Shown here in pieces: positions 5,504-49,195 of a DNA stretch of 49,610 nucleotides. Location: contig JAEEGT010000115.1 in assembly GCA_016280465.1 (NCBI GenBank), forward strand, positions 1 through 49,610, read 5' to 3'. Every line of letters starts with the position of its first letter. The stretch's first letter is position 1. A program made the translations under genes and the position numbers. The notes beneath the pieces are model-generated. The model saw only the letters and a program-made list of their open reading frames with translations, did no database searches and was not told the DNA's origin. This DNA is from Lachnospiraceae bacterium. Its GTDB lineage: Bacteria; Bacillota; Clostridia; Lachnospirales; Lachnospiraceae.

Positions 5504-8248
5504 TTATTCTTCCATGATCCTCATCCTGCGGATGGTGATGCCATCCTGACCAAAGGAAAGACTAAGGTATGCATCGATTGTCATGTAGGTTTCAAGAGAC
5601 ATGGTCTCTTCCCTGAACTCTACATCGTTACCGGTCAGAGAGATGACCTTCTTGGGAGTTCCGTTCAGGGAAAGGGTCAGGGGGATCTGTGCCAGCTCAC
5701 TGCCCTTTGCATTAAGTTCCATCACCAGTTTATATCTTGAAAGTTTGGCAAAATGAAGCTTGATCCTGTTCTCGGTGCCTCTGGAGGTATCAATAAGGGA
5801 AGGATCCACTTCCTTCTCTCCGCCCTCAAGACTTACGTCGAAGTTATTGACCTTACCGGTGGAAACATTCTTTGGAACGTTAAGTACTTCCCACTCATCA
5901 GTCTCACCGTTCATAATATCGTAAGCCAGGGAACCCATGGCTACCGTAAGGATCCTCTTTGCATTTCTTTCAAGCTCGGCCCTTGTGAAGATACCCTTCT
6001 TAAGGCCCTCTTCCGAATCGTCCTTGTTGGCATTCTCGAGAGCATTGGTGGAGCACATATAAACGTCGTTGGCTCCGCGGATCATAAAGGAGGTGTACTG
6101 ACGGCTCGACTCGCCGCCCTCTTCGTTGATGTAGGTCCACCAGTCTGTGGCAACGATTCCCTTAAAGCCCCATTCTTTGCGAAGAACGGTCTCATTCTGA
6201 TCGAAGCTTGATGCGGTGTGGGTGCCGTTCAAAAGTCCGTAGGTAGACATTATGAGATATGCCCCGCCTTCTTTTACCGCCATCTCATAGCCCTTTAAGT
6301 AGATCTCCCTGAGGGCTCTCTTGGAAACCACACTGTCGATGGTGTGACGGCCGAACTCCTGATTGTTGCAGGAGAAATGCTTGATCATGCCGGTAACATG
6401 ATGTCTGTGCATGCCCTTAAGCTCCGATACTGCCATGATGCCCGTAAGGTAAGGGTCTTCGCTGAAGTACTCAAAGTTTCGTCCGTTAAGGGGACTTCTG
6501 TGTATGTTCATACCGGGACCGAGAAGTGAGTCGATCCTGTTAAGTCTCAGTTCTTTGCCGAGATAATCGTAAAGTTTTGTGACAAGCCCGGGGTTAAAGG
6601 TGCAGGCAAGTGATACTCCGTTTGAAACCTGCATGGCCTTGGTGCCGGCATCCATACGGATACCACTGGGGCCGTCCGCACAGCATAGAGTAGGAACACC
6701 GTAGGAATTAAGGGCATCGGTGGATCCGCAAAAGGCACCTGCGGTACCTGCCGTAACCCTGTGGGAGCACATGCCCTCGCCCCTGGTCATGGCGATCATC
6801 TCACTGTCGCTCAATCCCGCAACAAATTCATCAAGAGTGATCCTTCCCTCTTTGACATCCTTAAGTTTATATTCCTGTCTTCCCTTGTAGGGATTCTCTT
6901 TAAGGTTCTTACGCTCTTCGGCGATCCGCTCCATGGGACCGATCTTCCTTAAAGGAGTATCCTGCCAGATAAGCTCACCCTTTTCGGTCCTTGCCATACG
7001 CTTGAAGGGCTTGATGGGTGCCAGTGCTTCGCTGAGTCTTTCGGTAACGATAAGATCTCCGAGGCTGATACCTCCTATGGGCATTGCGCGCCTTACATCC
7101 TCGCCTTCAAAGATGGTATATTCGCCGGGCTCAAGCACATAGCAGTCCGGATTTTCCGTATATCCTCCGTCATCGAAGGAAGCCATTTCCATAACGGAAA
7201 AAGAAACCGAGATCTGTTCCTCGCAGCCGGGCTCGATAACGCCGGTCTTTGCAATGCGAACCAGCTCTCTCTCGGGCTTTGAAAGCTTTCCTGCGGGAGC
7301 TTTATAGTAAACCTGGACCGCATCCTTGCCGGGCACGGTACCTGTGTTCTTTACAGTGACGTTGACGGTGATACCCTTTCCCTCAAAGGATATTCCGGCT
7401 CTGTGCTCAAAAGTTGTATAAGAAAGACCGAAGCCGAAGGGATAGAGCACCTTGTCTCTGGCAAAGGTTTCAAAATAACGGTAACCTACGAAGATATCCT
7501 CAACGTATATCCCCTCATTGGGGTCTCCAAAGTGTCCTTCGCAGGGGTAATCCTTGATGTCTTTGGCAATGGTGTCCGCAAGATGTCCCGAAGGATTGAC
7601 CTTACCCGTAACCACATCCGCCACGGAGTTACCGCCTTCAACACCGCCCTGCCATACATAAAGGACAGCTGAAGGATCAAGTTCACCCACCCATTTCATG
7701 TCGATGATATTTCCGGAATTAATGAGCACGCAGACCTTCTCAAAGTTTGCGGTGAGCACTTTGATCATGTCCTCTTCATCGTCTCTTAAGGTGTAGCTTC
7801 CCCTGTCGGGAGTGTTGTCCTTGTCTTCACCCGCAAGACGGCCGATGACAGCGACAGCAACATCGTTTCTTGATGCAGCCTCCCTTACGATATCCTGATC
7901 CAGTGGCATTTCCACCTGGCTGAAGGGTTCTCCGGCCCAGCCCACACCCTTGTCGTAAGGATGGTCCTTAAGCCAGTCTCTGTAGATATCCGCAACGGTC
8001 TCATCAAGTTCCACGGAACCCGAATTCTTAAGGCCGTCGTAGATGTTTACCACATAGGGAGTATTTACAAGTCCGCCGGAACCGCTGCCGCTTTTGATAT
8101 AGTCAAACTGGGTACGGCCGAAAAGAGCGACCCTCGATCCCTTACTAAGGGGCAGGGTGTTTTTCTCGTTCTTAAGAAGAACACAGCCTTCCGCGCCGGC
8201 TTCTCTTGCTATTTTCGCATATTCCTTCCAATCGAATGTGTATTTCAT
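5504..8248 (-). CDS. GH3 family beta-glucosidase with swapped domain order
   Basis: Glycoside hydrolase family 3 enzyme, 914 residues, expected to release glucose (or xylose) from the non-reducing end of short beta-glycosides. The usual order is reversed. The GH3 C-terminal domain comes first (residues 1 to about 235, with EGCVLLKNE near the start), then a fibronectin-III-like domain (to about 365), then the GH3 N-terminal barrel (about 440-770). The barrel has LLGPGMNIHRSPLNGRNFEYFSEDP, KHFSCNNQE, and the nucleophile Asp in KGIVATDWW. The acid/base Glu is probably in AGEDKDNTPDRG of the first domain. About 130 residues after the barrel look like an added beta-sandwich. There is no signal peptide, so it is cytoplasmic. 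This permuted layout is known from B. fibrisolvens BglA and R. albus. It lies between gtrA and the sensor kinase in one run. Confidence 0.95.
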   Translation of the reverse strand: MKYTFDWKEYAKIAREAGAEGCVLLKNEKNTLPLSKGSRVALFGRTQFDYIKSGSGSGGLVNTPYVVNIYDGLKNSGSVELDETVADIYRDWLKDHPYDKGVGWAGEPFSQVEMPLDQDIVREAASRNDVAVAVIGRLAGEDKDNTPDRGSYTLRDDEEDMIKVLTANFEKVCVLINSGNIIDMKWVGELDPSAVLYVWQGGVEGGNSVADVVTGKVNPSGHLADTIAKDIKDYPCEGHFGDPNEGIYVEDIFVGYRYFETFARDKVLYPFGFGLSYTTFEHRAGISFEGKGITVNVTVKNTGTVPGKDAVQVYYKAPAGKLSKPERELVRIAKTGVIEPGCEEQISVSFSVMEMASFDDGGYTENPDCYVLEPGEYTIFEGEDVRRAMPIGGISLGDLIVTERLSEALAPIKPFKRMARTEKGELIWQDTPLRKIGPMERIAEERKNLKENPYKGRQEYKLKDVKEGRITLDEFVAGLSDSEMIAMTRGEGMCSHRVTAGTAGAFCGSTDALNSYGVPTLCCADGPSGIRMDAGTKAMQVSNGVSLACTFNPGLVTKLYDYLGKELRLNRIDSLLGPGMNIHRSPLNGRNFEYFSEDPYLTGIMAVSELKGMHRHHVTGMIKHFSCNNQEFGRHTIDSVVSKRALREIYLKGYEMAVKEGGAYLIMSTYGLLNGTHTASSFDQNETVLRKEWGFKGIVATDWWTYINEEGGESSRQYTSFMIRGANDVYMCSTNALENANKDDSEEGLKKGIFTRAELERNAKRILTVAMGSLAYDIMNGETDEWEVLNVPKNVSTGKVNNFDVSLEGGEKEVDPSLIDTSRGTENRIKLHFAKLSRYKLVMELNAKGSELAQIPLTLSLNGTPKKVISLTGNDVEFREETMSLETYMTIDAYLSLSFGQDGITIRRMRIMEE

Positions 8249-23914: not shown

Positions 23915-25720
23915 TTATTCAGCCTTTTCTTTCACCTCATCACAAAGATAGGTAAGGGGCACTCCATAGGTCTTTTCGTAAGTCTCTTTCCAGAAAGCGT
24001 AGTTTTTCTTCATCATGTAATCGATGTTTTCGTTTCTGTTTCGATTACGCGAAGGGAAAATGGGTGCTCCCACATGAACCGTATAGGCCTGTACGGGATA
24101 ACCGTCACCGTCCACCGTATCCGTATCCTCCATGGTGATAAAACAGGGAACCACAGGCACCATGTTATCCGCCGCAAAGATAAAGCCGCCACGCTTTAAG
24201 GGCTTGGGCTTACGGTAATTCCACCACATGCTCTGCTCGGGATAGATAAGGATGTAATGCCCCTTCTGAAGTATGGTCTTCACCGCCATCATGAGTTTCA
24301 TCATGGTACGCTTGTTGGAGCTTAAAGGAAGGGTATTGCAGTTACGCATAAGGAATCCGTAGAATCCGGGAAATGCGGTGTAGTTCGCTTCGCTTATGAT
24401 GCGGAAGAGTTTCTTTCTCTTGTGAGCGGAATCGTAGGTCAGCTGCATGGCAAAGCTGTCAAAAGCATTGAAATGGTTGCAGGTGATGATGGCGCCGCAG
24501 TCTAAGTTCTTTAAGTTCTCGATACCCTTTATCTCTTTGACACAGAACTGTTTCTTTGCAATAAGAAAATCCACGAACCAGTGAGCGATACGGAAAGCAT
24601 AGATGGCGCGAAGCCGGCTGTTTACGCTCCTTCTTAAGTAGTCCACGTCGCAGGGCTTAAGCTCTTTGGCGGGGGGATCGTCCTCCACGTCCTTGTCAAA
24701 GATACCTGCTTTTTCCAGTTTTTCTATGCGCTTCAACACTTCGGCTCTGGTAAGCTTGATCTCCTCACCGTCACCGTACATGTTCCTGTAATTCATGCGG
24801 TTACTGATCTCGGAAAGGGCCAGTTCCTGAAGCTTGTCGCCGCAGATGCGATCCTTTTCTTTGTCCTCGGGAGAATAATTCTCAAGGACCTGTTCGATCT
24901 CGCCGTAAAACTCGGTTTTCTTCGCATACTCCCAGAAGAAGGAACCCATGCGGCAATCCCTGTAATGCCAGGGCTTAAGGGCAAGATTGTAATGCACGAG
25001 TTTTGCTTTGTCATCGTCGCAGGGAAGGTTACCGGGCATCTGCACGTTCCATCTTGGATCCAGCCAGAGAACACGGTCCTTGCAGAGGATATTAAGATAA
25101 TCCTGATCCTGAGCCACCACAAAGGTGTAGTTGTTAAGGAGTTTGGTAAACTGCTTGAGCATGTGCTCTCTTCTGAACAGTTCGCAGTTTATGAGCACCA
25201 CTCCGGCGTTGAAATAGGCGCCGCGGGAAATTCCCAGGACCTTCTCCGCATAGTCCGCAAACACATCGGTCTGGGCAACGATCTGGTCCCTGATACCGCC
25301 TATAAGGTTCTTGCCAATCTCGTAGCGGTACAGGTTCACGATGTCCTCGCGGATTATGGTGTCGCTGTCGATATAAAGCACCTTTTTGTACTGAGGGAAC
25401 ATATCCGCGATAAACAGACGGTAATAGGTGGTGGCGGAATAATAATCCCTAAGGCAGATCTTCTTTGCGATCTTTGCCATTTCCTCACTCACATCCACAA
25501 AAACAAGTCTGCAGCTTTGAGTTTCCATCCTCTTAAGCTGTGCCTGATGAGCCGCGGAAATATCCGTGTGGAGTATGTGTATCTTGTATCTGTATCTGTC
25601 CGAGGTATTGTCGATAAGAGACTTTAAGGACACGGACAAAAAGGGTACATATCCGTCATCGGCGGCAAAGAACACGGGAATGACCCTGCTTCTTTTTAAA
25701 AGTAATATGTTTGCTTTCAT
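23915..25720 (-). CDS. Fusion of GT8 glycosyltransferase and PlsC-type acyltransferase
   Basis: A 601-residue two-domain cytoplasmic protein. Residues about 12-275 are a family 8 glycosyltransferase: VPVFFAADDGYVPFLSVSLKSL, metal-binding DSD at 118-120 (VLYIDSDTI), YFNAGVVLINC, DQDYLN and a late VHYNLALKPWHY. A charged linker (about 280-355) with a short coiled-coil-like part joins it to a PlsC/LPLAT acyltransferase. That domain has block I CNHFNAFD (canonical HX4D) and YPEQSMWWNY in place of the usual FPEG block. There is no signal peptide. Its ATG overlaps the stop of the preceding GT8 gene (ATGA), and GGAG precedes it. The likely role is to glycosylate and then acylate a lipid or glycan head group at the membrane; substrates are unknown. 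Confidence 0.9.
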   Translation of the reverse strand: MKANILLLKRSRVIPVFFAADDGYVPFLSVSLKSLIDNTSDRYRYKIHILHTDISAAHQAQLKRMETQSCRLVFVDVSEEMAKIAKKICLRDYYSATTYYRLFIADMFPQYKKVLYIDSDTIIREDIVNLYRYEIGKNLIGGIRDQIVAQTDVFADYAEKVLGISRGAYFNAGVVLINCELFRREHMLKQFTKLLNNYTFVVAQDQDYLNILCKDRVLWLDPRWNVQMPGNLPCDDDKAKLVHYNLALKPWHYRDCRMGSFFWEYAKKTEFYGEIEQVLENYSPEDKEKDRICGDKLQELALSEISNRMNYRNMYGDGEEIKLTRAEVLKRIEKLEKAGIFDKDVEDDPPAKELKPCDVDYLRRSVNSRLRAIYAFRIAHWFVDFLIAKKQFCVKEIKGIENLKNLDCGAIITCNHFNAFDSFAMQLTYDSAHKRKKLFRIISEANYTAFPGFYGFLMRNCNTLPLSSNKRTMMKLMMAVKTILQKGHYILIYPEQSMWWNYRKPKPLKRGGFIFAADNMVPVVPCFITMEDTDTVDGDGYPVQAYTVHVGAPIFPSRNRNRNENIDYMMKKNYAFWKETYEKTYGVPLTYLCDEVKEKAE

Positions 25721-26553
25721 AGATCGCTCCTCATTTCCTCAAATTTCTTTCTCAAATAGATGTATTCATACAGTACATCATCGAACTGATCGTACTTAAA
25801 AACCTTGTGGACCTTGGTGACATGCCACTGCTTGATATTGTCGGTATGGGGGTAAGGCAGGTAAAACAGGCGCTTGGAAAAATGCCTTATGACCGTATGG
25901 GGATGCAGGAATTTCTGGTCGTTAAAGCGCTGAGGCAGCATCTTCTTTCGGGTGGTGCTCCTGTAAATGGCGCTTTGATCCGCAAAGACCAGTTTCTTTG
26001 TCTTTATAAGTTCTCTTGCTTTTTCAAAGAGATGAGTGCTGCGGCACTCGGGCATATTAAAAAGCAAAACTCCCGCATTGATGTAATTGGGATTTAACAG
26101 GTACTTTCCGTAATGATCCCTGGCGGCGGCATACTCATAGCCGGTCACATCGATGTCATATAAAAGTTCCGGTTCCCTGTTAAAAAGAATGTCCGCATCA
26201 AGATAAAGGATCTTGTCGGGGATCCCGGGGATCATGTCGATAAAGAGCCTTAGCAGAGTGTAGGGGGAACAATAACACTGCTCGTTGGGACAGCTTGCGA
26301 ATTCGCGGTTGTAGATGTCCGTAACATCAAGCTTTATGATCCGGTTCCCGGGATTGTACTGCTTTGCGATGCCCTCAAGGAAACTTATCTTTTCATCACT
26401 GATGGGTACATATTGGGGCTTAATGTGGGACACGTCCATGGTAAGGACATAGGCCGTTACGGGCTCTTTAGACTTTGTACGCTTATATACCGACAGAAGA
26501 CAGGTCATTATACCGTCAAAAACCCCATCATTTCCCGAAAATAAAAGATTCAT
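25717..26553 (-). CDS. Family 8 glycosyltransferase
   Basis: A 278-residue cytoplasmic retaining glycosyltransferase of the LgtC/glycogenin-like GT8 family. Seen: MNLLFSGNDGVFDGIMTCLLSV at the N-terminus, the nucleotide-sugar metal site DAD in KILYLDADILF (about 120), YINAGVLLFNMPECR, FADQSAIY and a late VIRHFSKR / WHVTKVHK. The C-terminal basic end (YLRKKFEEMRSDL) may aid membrane contact. It overlaps the acyltransferase gene upstream and the fusion gene downstream by 4 bases each (ATGA), so translation is coupled. Together with the fusion protein this gives two GT8 domains and two acyltransferase domains in one operon. Confidence 0.93.
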   Translation of the reverse strand: MNLLFSGNDGVFDGIMTCLLSVYKRTKSKEPVTAYVLTMDVSHIKPQYVPISDEKISFLEGIAKQYNPGNRIIKLDVTDIYNREFASCPNEQCYCSPYTLLRLFIDMIPGIPDKILYLDADILFNREPELLYDIDVTGYEYAAARDHYGKYLLNPNYINAGVLLFNMPECRSTHLFEKARELIKTKKLVFADQSAIYRSTTRKKMLPQRFNDQKFLHPHTVIRHFSKRLFYLPYPHTDNIKQWHVTKVHKVFKYDQFDDVLYEYIYLRKKFEEMRSDL

Positions 26554-27404
26554 GCATCATTCTCCGTTGTTGACGTTTGTGTAGCCTCAGAAGGGGATTT
26601 TCCACCCTCCGGGCTTCCGTTTTCGTTGCGCTTTACGTATTTTACCATAACCACGTTGTTGTGGACCGTGTTCTTTTTCATAGCTTCATAGACACGGTTC
26701 CGAAGTTCCGTTTTCTGCTCGGCTCTCGGAAGTGACTCATCCGCAAAGAAAGGGCCCTCCACATAGGTCACGATCTTCGGAGTTTTGGATCCGCGGCGCT
26801 TTTGGTAGGTATTTGTAAAGCAGAAAACAGGCTTATGATATTTGATCGGGTATCTGAAGGAAGCATCCCGAAAGTTTCTTATGTCTGTGTAATAGGGCCA
26901 GATATGGGCTTCCGGGTAGATTCCCACGCAGGATTTTCCCATTATGGCACGCTTGACCGCTTCCTCAAAGTTTTTAAGTGCTTCTTTGCCGTCGGGTAAG
27001 GGAATGGCTCCCAGACTTGGATTTATTGGACCCAGGATGGGCATGGACACGTTGTTGGCGTGAGCAATCATGTAGACATCCTTGGGGTAGGTTATCATGG
27101 AGGGAATAAAAGCATCCGCAAAGGCGTTGGTGTGGTTTCCGTAGAGGAAATACCCCGTGTTTTTGTAAGGTTTAAGGACCTTGCGGTTTACGATCCTGTG
27201 ATGATATTTGATCTTTAGAGCGATATATCCGATGGGCCTTGCAAGAAGGTAATAAAAAAACAGCCGCCCGATCTTTCTTTTCAAACCGCCGTCATAATCA
27301 TAGGTTTCGTCTATTTTACGAGGAGTGATCTTCGCAGTGGAAAACTCATCCTCAAGCTCATTATCATAGTAAATTACAGGAGTTTCACAAGACGTAGTTT
27401 TCAT
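26550..27404 (-). CDS. PlsC-like acyltransferase, first gene of the GT8 operon
   Basis: A lysophospholipid-acyltransferase-like protein of 284 residues. The start is set at ATG 27404 (MKTTSCETP). The GTG at 27440 in the ORF track lies upstream of the predicted transcript start. A hydrophobic helix at about 50-65 (RLFFYYLLARPIGYIALKI) would hold it at the membrane. Block I reads GNHTNAFADAFIP, which has five residues between His and Asp where the family normally has four. Block III reads GIYPEAHIWPYY. The C-terminal about 30 residues are polar and Ser/Thr-rich. No ribosome site precedes the ATG. It is likely to acylate a glycerol- or glycolipid acceptor that the two downstream GT8 proteins also use. 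Confidence 0.85.
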   Translation of the reverse strand: MKTTSCETPVIYYDNELEDEFSTAKITPRKIDETYDYDGGLKRKIGRLFFYYLLARPIGYIALKIKYHHRIVNRKVLKPYKNTGYFLYGNHTNAFADAFIPSMITYPKDVYMIAHANNVSMPILGPINPSLGAIPLPDGKEALKNFEEAVKRAIMGKSCVGIYPEAHIWPYYTDIRNFRDASFRYPIKYHKPVFCFTNTYQKRRGSKTPKIVTYVEGPFFADESLPRAEQKTELRNRVYEAMKKNTVHNNVVMVKYVKRNENGSPEGGKSPSEATQTSTTENDA

Positions 27405-27413
27405 AACTACTTC

Positions 27414-27442
27414 AGTATAGCAGATTTTTCCCCGGAGCACAA
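27414..27442 (-). promoter_or_regulatory. Promoter of the GT8/acyltransferase operon (leaderless)
   Basis: TTGTGC-N17-TATACT, with the -10 box preceded by TGC (extended -10-like). The predicted transcript start, near 27407, is about 3 bases before the ATG at 27404. The mRNA would therefore be nearly leaderless, which agrees with the absence of a ribosome site. Confidence 0.65.
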
Positions 27443-46653: not shown

Positions 46654-47328
46654 TCATTTTCTTCGTTCCAAAAGCCGTACCACCAAAGCGGATACAAGCC
46701 CCACCGGAACAGCGGCAATGACATCGAGAGCGGAATGCTGTTTTACAAAGGTCGTGGAAGCCGCAATGGCTACAGCTGCAATGACAGTGAAGATCTTAAA
46801 GCCGAGGGATGCATATCTGTCCCTGCACCAGGTATATGCCACAGCCATGGAAAAAGCAACGTGCATGGAAGGAAACACACCTGTAGGAGTATCAAAGTTA
46901 TAGATTATATCAAGGATCCATGTGAAGAAATTCTCATGTGCAAAGCTTTCCGGTCTGAGGTTCTGAACACTGGGGAACAGGATGATGGTCACCACACCGA
47001 TTATCTGGCAGGTGATTATGAATCTTTGGACCCTTCTGAAACATTCTTTGTCAAAAAGGAGGTAAAAGAGCAGGGTCCCAAAAACGTAAAGATACCAGAA
47101 CACGTATATAAGGACAAATTCTTCCCTGAAGGGAATGATGTCATCCAGTTTTGAATGTATCACATGGCACTTTTCCACGGGGATCAGGTTCTCCGTGATA
47201 AAGTACATTGAAAAGTAAAACACCCATCCGAGTATCAACAAAAGATGGGAGTATTTGGGATCTGTCAAATTGGTAAGGCGAAGGCCTCTGTAATCTACGA
47301 GGGTCCTTCGCTCTTTTCTTTCTTTCAC
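46654..47328 (-). CDS. PAP2-family membrane phosphatase
   Basis: A 224-residue membrane protein with about six hydrophobic segments. The PAP2 active site shows as PTGVFPSMHVAFSMA (domain 2, His) and STTFVKQHSALDVIAAVPVG (domain 3, His with following Asp). Domain 1 is less clear (NLRPESFAHEN). Such enzymes dephosphorylate phosphatidate, polyprenyl diphosphate or inositol-phosphate lipids on the outer membrane face. The start is GTG at 47328, overlapping the acyltransferase stop (GTGA). It is the last gene of a three-gene run. The lacI promoter begins about 20 bases beyond its stop, with no terminator visible, so some read-through is possible. Confidence 0.88.
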   Translation of the reverse strand: MKERKERRTLVDYRGLRLTNLTDPKYSHLLLILGWVFYFSMYFITENLIPVEKCHVIHSKLDDIIPFREEFVLIYVFWYLYVFGTLLFYLLFDKECFRRVQRFIITCQIIGVVTIILFPSVQNLRPESFAHENFFTWILDIIYNFDTPTGVFPSMHVAFSMAVAYTWCRDRYASLGFKIFTVIAAVAIAASTTFVKQHSALDVIAAVPVGLVSALVVRLLERRK

Positions 47329-48146
47329 TGTAAATCTTTCTCCTTGTTGTCATCAGAGGCTGTGCCGGAAGTCAGATCGACTATAGGCAGGCTCTTTGGA
47401 TAGTGCTTTTTGGAAACATTGGGGTAGGGTACCACCGTATGCTCCGGAAGGGCCGCAGCCAGGGCTGTGATCTCGTCCATAAGGCATTTGGCTATACGCT
47501 CGCGTTCTTCTTCGGTAGGAGCTTCTGAATCGAATTTTATCGGTTTTCCAAACTCTATGCGCTTGAGCAAAGGCGCCAGATACATGGGCACAAAGGCAAG
47601 ATCCTTGCCCGTTTTCTTTCGGTACATCTTCGCGATATCGATAAACCTGTTTTGGAACATGTGAACGATATTGTTGTACTCATCGTAACACTCGGGAAAA
47701 ATGACCACGCGGACACCCTTTGAGAGCTCCTCGGTGGTCTCCTTGAAGGTCTTGACTATTCGCATGTCATGATAAACAGGGATCGTGTGTGCCGAATTGA
47801 AGACTATGTCAGCAATAGGCGGGATGATATAACTTAAGATTTTAAAGAACCAGCGGATCCAAAGAGGTTTTTTTGACCAAAAATCCCGATAAGCATAAGC
47901 CGAAACGGTCTTGGGGTCCATCATATCCCCTATGCACCAGGTGGCGTGCTTGCCGGGTATATACAGTTCTCCCGCAATGGGGCCATACATATGGCTGTGA
48001 TTCCCCACGATCACGCAGGGGCCGTCCTCCGGCAGGTTTTCTTCTCCGTATATTTTATATTTGGGCGAAAACATCCAGACCGAACGTCGAATAAATCGAT
48101 ATCCGGGCTTCAGTTTTTTATCATCAAGGTGTGCAAATCTGTTCAT
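47325..48146 (-). CDS. PlsC-like acyltransferase lacking the block I aspartate
   Basis: A 273-residue LPLAT-fold protein. A hydrophobic or amphipathic helix at about 85-105 (KKPLWIRWFFKILSYIIPP) suggests membrane association. Block I reads VGNHSHMYGPIAGE: His is kept, but the Asp of HX4D is Gly. Block III reads VIFPECYDEYNN, with FPE kept but no Gly after it. A downstream RFIDIAKMYRKKTGKDLAFVPMYLAP is strongly retained in character. The changed block I means it may use another base partner, act on an unusual acceptor, or be non-catalytic. It is coupled to the PAP2 gene by GTGA overlap, 16 bases after the E2-like gene. Confidence 0.82.
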   Translation of the reverse strand: MNRFAHLDDKKLKPGYRFIRRSVWMFSPKYKIYGEENLPEDGPCVIVGNHSHMYGPIAGELYIPGKHATWCIGDMMDPKTVSAYAYRDFWSKKPLWIRWFFKILSYIIPPIADIVFNSAHTIPVYHDMRIVKTFKETTEELSKGVRVVIFPECYDEYNNIVHMFQNRFIDIAKMYRKKTGKDLAFVPMYLAPLLKRIEFGKPIKFDSEAPTEEERERIAKCLMDEITALAAALPEHTVVPYPNVSKKHYPKSLPIVDLTSGTASDDNKEKDLQ

Positions 48147-48162
48147 GCCGATCTAAACTGCC

Positions 48163-49053
48163 TTACTCCTTATTAACCTTGGGCTCGCTGTACTCACAGT
48201 CCTTGTCAAATCTGACGGTCTCCGGGGGTACCTCCAGGTCTTCGGGGTGGTTGAGGAAATACTTCATATCGGCAAAAAACTTGGCATAATATGCTCCGGC
48301 GCAAACTCTTTCATCCACAACGATACCTATGGGAAGAAAACGCTTCATGGAGGTTCCTTCTTCGTTGGTCACCGCTACCTGTTCCGTGGTGCCGAGGCTG
48401 AAGAACATGCCCACATTACCGAAATTGTAAATGTGATGATTAACGTGATGAAGGCCTATGGATGCTGTATTGGTGATATATGCACCCACATAGAAGGGCA
48501 GCTCCTCAATAAGGGTTTTCGGGCACATATCGTGCTTGTCAAGAAACTTTACCAGCGCAACCAGGAAAGAAGGCAGACCCGGGATCTTGAATACAGCCGC
48601 AGCAAGCTTATTTGACACATTGGAAGGGGTATCCTTACGCTCTGCCTCCACAGCCGCATTAAAGCGGTCACGGACGTCAAAAAGGGTATCGTAGGGATCG
48701 AACTTTAACTTAACAACAGCCTCGCCCTCGGAGTAGTCACCGGGGTTTTTAAGTATGGTAAAAGCACAGCTTAAGTTGTTACGGGCATAGAACCTTCTGT
48801 TCATGATAAATCTGTTAACTTCGGGGTTCTTGCTGACGGAACGTACATAGGCTGCTATAAAAAGCTGCATATGTGTAATGGTTTCGTTGCGTTCCTGTCT
48901 CAACTTACGTATGTATTTATTCATCCTGTCCATGTCCACCCTGTGCTGCAGGAAGACCTGGGCATCACAGCGCATGGGCATAAGATAGGGAGTTATCTGA
49001 ACAATGGGGTCTACACCTTTGATTCTGCGTCCGTCGGTTCTCTTTCCAAACAT
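48163..49053 (-). CDS. Stand-alone E2/CAT-like acyltransferase-fold protein without the catalytic histidine
   Basis: 296 residues from ATG 49053 (MFGKRTDGRRIK), 5 bases after GGAGG. It matches the C-terminal catalytic fold of 2-oxoacid dehydrogenase E2 and chloramphenicol acetyltransferase, without lipoyl or subunit-binding domains. Seen: RNETITHMQLFIAAYVRSVSKNPEVNRFIMNRRFYARNNLS, INTASIG-type segment TNTASIGLHHVNHHIYNFGN, and the C-terminal GIVVDERVCAGAYYAKFF. The last aligns with the HxxxDG active-site motif (VDHRVVDG), with His replaced by Glu and Asp by Ala. The standard CoA-dependent transfer chemistry should therefore be absent or altered. It is the first gene of a run with an acyltransferase and PAP2. 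Confidence 0.85.
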   Translation of the reverse strand: MFGKRTDGRRIKGVDPIVQITPYLMPMRCDAQVFLQHRVDMDRMNKYIRKLRQERNETITHMQLFIAAYVRSVSKNPEVNRFIMNRRFYARNNLSCAFTILKNPGDYSEGEAVVKLKFDPYDTLFDVRDRFNAAVEAERKDTPSNVSNKLAAAVFKIPGLPSFLVALVKFLDKHDMCPKTLIEELPFYVGAYITNTASIGLHHVNHHIYNFGNVGMFFSLGTTEQVAVTNEEGTSMKRFLPIGIVVDERVCAGAYYAKFFADMKYFLNHPEDLEVPPETVRFDKDCEYSEPKVNKE

Positions 49054-49085: not shown

Positions 49086-49114
49086 ATGATACCAAAATAT
49101 GGTAGTTTATACAA
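49086..49114 (-). promoter_or_regulatory. Promoter of the E2-like/acyltransferase/PAP2 operon
   Basis: TTGTAT-N17-TATCAT, about 35-40 bases before the ATG at 49053. A TACCA/TGGTA inverted repeat lies in the spacer. Confidence 0.6.
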
Positions 49115-49164
49115 GTGTAAAAAGAGGGGGTAAGCTAGCCAGCACCATACAGATAAGTAAAAAA

Positions 49165-49195
49165 AGACCGGTTGCGAGTAAACTCGCACCGGTCT
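49165..49195 (-). terminator. Terminator of tuf
   Basis: GACCGG and GCGAGT stem blocks pair with ACTCGC and CCGGTC, with single-base bulges. TTTTTTTACTT follows on the minus strand, about 32 bases past the tuf stop. Confidence 0.9.

Follow-up and report, generated by a model that had tools for sequence, protein, structure and literature searches.

Locus architecture

The window, the whole 49,610-nt stretch of Lachnospiraceae DNA that we analyzed, contains three acyltransferase/phosphatase genes that form a tight unit on the minus strand in the order E2-like, PlsC-like and PAP2. The first gene (48163..49053, minus strand) encodes a 296-aa protein of the E2/CAT fold, as indicated by PF00198, profile matches to PDB entries, Foldseek and 128 relatives. 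The second (47325..48146, minus strand) encodes a 273-aa PlsC-like (LPLAT) protein with an HX4G motif, recognized by PF01553 and a profile match to 5kym, and the third (46654..47328, minus strand) encodes a 224-aa membrane protein of the PAP2 superfamily, recognized by PF01569 and PF14378, its triad and its hydrophobic segments. All three proteins passed the Pfam cut-offs, with 44.5 bits for the E2-like protein against PF00198 and 30.5 bits for the PlsC-like protein against PF01553 (cut-off 23 in each case), and 31 bits for the PAP2 protein against both PF01569 and PF14378, which fit it equally well. The three-gene observation is therefore not due to chance, and the layout proposed in a first-pass annotation of this DNA held, with every open reading frame in its place. 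Against the NCBIfam models, all three scored below every cut-off.

The most likely start of the E2-like gene is the ATG at 49053, which has a GGAGG just upstream; the longer start given in the list of open reading frames, a TTG at 49095, is less likely. A gap of 16 nt separates the E2-like and PlsC-like genes, and the PAP2 gene starts with a GTG in a 4-nt overlap with the stop of the PlsC-like gene. These overlaps and short gaps, which the first-pass annotation had taken to show co-expression, are indeed present, and from them we infer that the three genes are expressed together. An EF-Tu gene ends upstream of the operon, and behind it stand an inverted repeat with a one-base bulge and a T-run (49159..49194, minus strand), which we identified by eye and which are probably an intrinsic terminator setting EF-Tu apart from the operon; a simple terminator scan did not list this repeat. 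Downstream lies a gene for a LacI-type regulator, preceded by a TTGACA/TACTAT promoter-like match. Sequences resembling promoters or terminators were no commoner in this region than in shuffled sequence, so the transcript limits given here are putative.

A candidate His-Glu dyad in the PlsC-like protein

In profile searches of the PDB, the PlsC-like protein matched T. maritima PlsC (5kym) with an E value of 7.6e-07, and across all PDB searches E2 cores and this enzyme were the only sensible matches. The PF01553 score above cut-off and the 5kym match are thus shared with PlsC (1-acylglycerol-3-phosphate acyltransferase), but the protein scores only 21.8 against TIGR00530 (cut-off 102.95), carries an insertion of ~30 residues relative to 5kym between its His and FPE motifs, and does not have HX4D. 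Its NHSHMYG segment reads HX4G (His50, Gly55), confirming the earlier remark that the Asp of this motif is gone. Among 14 operon-type relatives the motif is HX4G in 13 and HX4C in one, and none has HX4D or HX4E. His50 (codon 47997..47999, minus strand) is His in all 25 relatives aligned and, like the PE-motif Glu and an Arg after the VYxD strand, is kept in 14/14 operon-type relatives. This Glu, Glu152 of the FPE motif (codon 47691..47693, minus strand), aligns on the Glu of FPEG in T. maritima PlsC, where it lies 72 residues past the His, and is the proposed partner of His50.

Two characterized sugar acylators offer a precedent. In PatA, H126 and E200, 74 residues apart, form a charge relay in which either alanine mutant is inactive, and the Asp of HX4D is differently placed and dispensable (PMC4792965); VexE has a Tyr at the acid position of HX4D and is active, depending on H466 and D532 (PMC9597891). 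The His50–Glu152 pair appears to match these dyads, with Glu152 equated to PatA E200 by motif and spacing rather than by structure. Shared with both enzymes are a catalytic His and an acid at the FPE position, with the HX4D acid unneeded or replaced, whereas HX4G in place of HX4D or its Tyr variant, and an operon with a PAP2 and an E2-like protein, set the PlsC-like protein apart; sequence similarity is very low, and the likeness is one of motif, drawn without direct sequence comparison. Because PatA and VexE are active without the HX4D acid, calling this protein degenerate, as the first-pass annotation did, is unjustified, and His50 and Glu152 are candidates to fill the catalytic positions, a situation that the annotation itself had named as one that would refute its reading. 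The genome encodes further strong PF01553 proteins as well as PlsY, so the operon protein is an additional one. No viral contigs were found among the PlsC-like relatives. Two distant HX4G PlsC-like proteins (L100 and L102) lack the FPE acid as well, reading FAKR and FSRR at that position, and may be truly inactive.

An E2 fold with an altered motif

When the PDB was searched with the family profile of the E2-like protein, all matches were 2-oxoacid dehydrogenase E2 components; a single-sequence PDB search with the protein gave chance matches. An AlphaFold model of the monomer, for which the window protein was aligned with 37 relatives, reached a mean pLDDT of 69.8, falling below 50 in the loop 197-211, and its best Foldseek matches were E2 cores (E near 2e-9). 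Compared with 2-oxoacid dehydrogenase E2 (1b5s, 1dpb), the protein has the same fold, DxR positions, oxyanion Thr/Ser and final helix, but it differs in a Glu for the catalytic His, in a His-His pair carried by the low-confidence loop and in its gene neighbors, and it scores far below every NCBIfam E2 cut-off. The lipoyl and subunit-binding domains of E2 are also missing, with no Pfam match to either, and the 296 aa correspond to the catalytic domain only. The protein is the sole PF00198 match in the window's genome, which is 81% complete.

The key residues are T194, H206, H207, D247-E248-R249, A252 and G253. DERVCAG aligns on DHRMIDG of E2, which places Glu248 (codon 48310..48312, minus strand) at the catalytic His and Ala252 at the Asp, in agreement with the first-pass statement that both catalytic residues are gone. 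In the PDB profile alignment T194 aligns with the Thr/Ser at the oxyanion position, which in E2 stabilizes the tetrahedral intermediate (PMC8421416). The flanking Asp and Arg of E2 are joined in a salt bridge by which the catalytic His is kept in place, and the DHR triplet has been described as conserved across all E2 sequences (PMC8421416); the E2-like protein keeps both salt-bridge positions, so the setting of the site is kept and the His itself exchanged.

We aligned 128 E2-like sequences, 50 from Clostridia MAGs near Christensenella and 78 from wider sampling together with the window. S198, H206, H207, G212, D247, R249 and G253 are invariant, and position 248 is acidic throughout, with Asp in three sequences and Glu in all the others. 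At position 252, 72 of the 78 wider relatives have Asp, and the close clade has Ser, Gly or Ala. As judged from this alignment, the exchange of His for Glu is a family-wide change, and absence of the E2 Asp marks the window's clade only. The altered residues of the E2-like and PlsC-like proteins are thus family traits, and we dismissed the idea that the window copy has decayed locally; their conservation across homologues, which the first-pass annotation had proposed to check, is borne out for both proteins.

The HHxxxDG motif of CAT, WS-DGAT and condensation enzymes is absent from the E2-like protein, which has DERVCAG instead. The His-His pair of the family (His206-His207, codons 48433..48438, minus strand; a pair in 128/128 relatives) sits ~40 residues upstream of the DERVCAG position. 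It would lie in the substrate channel, as suggested by alignment to the Thr-Pro of FTPxxN, whose position in the Azotobacter E2 structure we take to be within that channel. As controls we used 20 proteins of the class sample that matched with lower scores, most of them as long as a lipoyl-E2: 17 have DHR and one has DQR, and the pattern used found nothing in the other two. In the controls for which the corresponding segment was displayed, it reads like FTPIIN and holds no His-His pair; for a few of them another segment was displayed. The control with DQR is a lipoyl-E2-like protein (L274:1-1440).

The PAP2 protein

The active site of the PAP2 protein had been described as intact. This holds for the triad, H156 (in PSMH) and H198/D202 (in KQHSALD), which is conserved in 13/13 relatives aligned, and for the RP of the C1 motif (R125); it does not hold for the Lys of KX6RP, as the window sequence has no Lys seven residues before RP, or for the Arg of C3, a PAP2 motif residue, which is a Thr in the window sequence. 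For the triad and the C1 motif we followed published definitions (PMC5798408). The His-His-Asp triad and RP are common to the LppA/LppB-type phosphatases of Streptomyces and to PAP2_3 lipid phosphotransferases, from which the window protein differs in having neither the C1 Lys nor the C3 Arg. It may be a phosphatase or a transferase. In Streptomyces, PAP2 enzymes supply DAG for triacylglycerol (PMC3599759).

Linkage of the three genes across Clostridia

Four relatives from the same genus carry the genes in the order PlsC-PAP2-E2. Their PlsC proteins are 57-62% and their PAP2 proteins 48-49% identical to those of the window, whereas the E2-like proteins are only 29-31% identical. The window's E2-like protein groups instead with copies in two other family genomes (L235, genome G556; L236, genome G537) inside a Christensenella-like set, with a support of 0.93 for the clade of nine, and in G556 this E2 subtype adjoins PlsC-PAP2 in divergent orientation. 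The simplest reading of these sequence relationships would be that one E2 subtype took the place of another while the PlsC-PAP2 pair next to it stayed the same, a replacement whose direction of transfer we infer. A mis-binned contig is an unlikely source of the odd E2, since the same subtype occurs in two other family genomes, one of which has it beside a PlsC-PAP2 pair of the family type. In G537, the window's E2 subtype and an EF-Tu-like gene lie ~5.5 kb apart on the same contig (L236:78-1034 and 6518-7744), which recalls the position of the E2-like gene beside EF-Tu in the window.

A check on co-occurrence of the three genes, also proposed in the first-pass annotation, came out positive. 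All eight family genomes with a strong operon-type PlsC carry an E2-like gene, compared with 35/250 overall (hypergeometric p 7e-8 across the 250 family genomes, relatedness not corrected for), and PlsC, PAP2 and E2 are adjacent in several different gene orders. Many E2-like genes stand alone, and around the stand-alone E2 genes of Christensenella-like MAGs, the closest clade, no lipid-related neighbors were seen. PlsC-PAP2 occurs without an adjacent E2 at two loci (L119, L237) and PlsC alone at one (L241). In the class sample (Clostridia), 122/292 genomes have any E2-like match and ~80, by reading of the match list, have full-length strong matches; in a phylum-wide sample the gene is present in 9/300 genomes. 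One locus from another class of the phylum (G603:C15:3856-5720) has a tandem pair of E2-like matches.

A single open frame of ~505 codons spans PAP2 and E2 in two genomes that belong to one genus (G083 and G222). The junction holds a GGAGG and a TTG, and the frame may give one product or two.

A same-strand acyl-CoA ligase gene adjoins 14/140 E2 loci, all outside the close clade. The six adjacent ligases tested all matched PF00501, with long-chain-fatty-acid--CoA ligase models as their best matches, and in one genome (G518, locus L240) PlsC, PAP2, E2 and ligase stand in a row. No strong ligase match was found in the window's genome (81% complete) or in most genomes with the triad, and we accordingly rejected the ligase as an obligatory partner. 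In the open-access library that we searched we found no paper on an E2/PAP2/ligase operon or on the combination of the three proteins, and for clostridial neutral lipids we found only unrelated papers on diet.

Discussion

The folds and the PAP2 protein are of known kinds. Since many species share the altered residues, the three proteins are probably working enzymes of an uncharacterized lipid pathway and not the products of decay. The conservation of linkage and of polar residues, together with the ligase neighbor, favors a lipid-acylation module that is catalytic but has non-standard active sites, a reading of the sequence comparisons to which we would give an even chance. It corresponds to the better of two ideas in the first-pass annotation, that of non-standard catalysis in lipid remodeling. 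In such a module, the PlsC-like protein would transfer an acyl chain to a membrane-lipid acceptor through a His50–Glu152 dyad of the PatA/VexE kind, the PAP2 protein would remove or exchange the phosphate head of the product, and the E2/CAT-fold protein, presumably a trimer, would make or remodel the final acyl linkage. With Glu248 at the place of the former catalytic His, we speculate that His206-His207 could supply the base or the nucleophile, or could form a relay together with Glu248; in the E2-like protein, too, other residues may then fill the catalytic positions.

By analogy, the order of enzyme classes resembles the end of a Kennedy-type route (ligase, PlsC, PAP and a final acyltransferase), and the classes of the triacylglycerol route (ligase, PlsC, PAP2, WS/DGAT) have one-for-one counterparts in the four-gene run of L240. 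The differences are that the CAT-fold member is E2-like and without HHxxxDG, and that most triad genomes gave no strong ligase match. Several points count against the module: the model is weak at the His-His loop and is that of a monomer, a strong ligase match is lacking in the window's genome and most triad genomes, many E2 genes are alone, those of the closest clade among them having no lipid-related neighbors, and the window's clade also lacks the Asp of the E2 motif. It is a more tentative and somewhat doubtful proposal that these proteins make up a clostridial class of the CAT/E2 fold in which the His became Glu and the His-His pair of the channel took over, a class that ends a lipid-acylation route together with a PatA-type HX4G acyltransferase, PAP2 and sometimes a ligase.

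A serious rival, although we think it unlikely, is acylation of a glycolipid or polyprenyl-linked sugar, in which the PlsC-like protein, in the manner of PatA, would have a sugar lipid as its acceptor and the PAP2 protein would recycle a lipid pyrophosphate or transfer a head group. A His and an FPE Glu without the HX4D Asp is the pattern of PatA and VexE, the PAP2 protein fits PF14378 as well as PF01569, and distant HX4G relatives are fused to GtrA (L098, L101) or stand beside a family 2 glycosyltransferase (L127). However, these GtrA and GT2 links are confined to distant relatives, and no glycosyltransferase or GtrA gene is present in the operon or in the operons of close relatives that we examined. 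These distant relatives are also the only ties to the polyprenyl carrier that the first-pass annotation had put forward as a possible substrate.

The same annotation had proposed that the two acyltransferase folds are degenerate and act as a binding or scaffold pair. Catalytically dead, they would bind acyl-CoA or lipid and organize or regulate PAP2, an explanation we regard as less likely than the catalytic module and quite improbable in itself. It would account for the loss of both the canonical HX4D Asp and the E2 His, a regulatory domain would suit the frame shared by PAP2 and E2 in two genomes, and the distant proteins L100 and L102 are likewise without the acid. Yet the invariance of H206, H207, D247 and R249 and the always acidic position 248 indicate constraint rather than drift, the E2-like protein retains its fold, DxR and oxyanion Thr/Ser, and His50 and the FPE Glu are present in all operon-type PlsC proteins, as in the active PatA and VexE. 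For the E2-like protein, a scaffold role may still apply. That the genes are chance neighbors serving separate lipid tasks is very improbable: the many lone E2-like genes, the PlsC-PAP2 pairs without E2 and the lone PlsC would fit incidental linkage, but the 8/8 co-occurrence, the persistence of adjacency across different arrangements and two E2 subtypes, and the fused PAP2-E2 frame argue against it.

Domain names alone would call these proteins pyruvate dehydrogenase E2 and PlsC, crediting the bacteria with enzymes that they possibly do not have. If the lipid-acylation module is active, the LPLATs would gain a branch that does not need the HX4D acid, and the relocation of an active site within the CAT fold would become a clear hypothesis that mutants can address. 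The host group consists of Clostridia whose lipids are poorly known, with many relatives coming from animal gut samples.

Other LPLAT genes

Further LPLAT genes of unusual composition were observed among the relatives and in the window. Two genes (L123:7121-8200 and L128:1076-2152, the same genes as L098 and L101) encode fusions of a membrane domain of the GtrA type with a distantly related HX4G PlsC-like domain, and two others (L120:6311-8338 and L121:5380-7353) encode proteins of 657-675 aa in which ~450 N-terminal residues without a Pfam match precede a C-terminal HX4G PlsC-like domain. The family 2 glycosyltransferase encoded beside the HX4G PlsC-like gene at L127:6432-7950 is akin to polyprenyl-phosphate sugar synthases. 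In the window itself, a minus-strand gene at 23915-25720 encodes a 601-aa fusion of a family 8 glycosyltransferase with PF01553, with an intact HX4D (NHFNAFD) and a YPE motif, and adjoins another GT8 gene (25717-26553) and a further PlsC-like gene. A PF01553 protein encoded at 26550-27440 (minus strand), with NHTNAFAD, in which the acid stands one residue past its HX4D position, and YPEAHIWPY, is another non-canonical LPLAT of the window.
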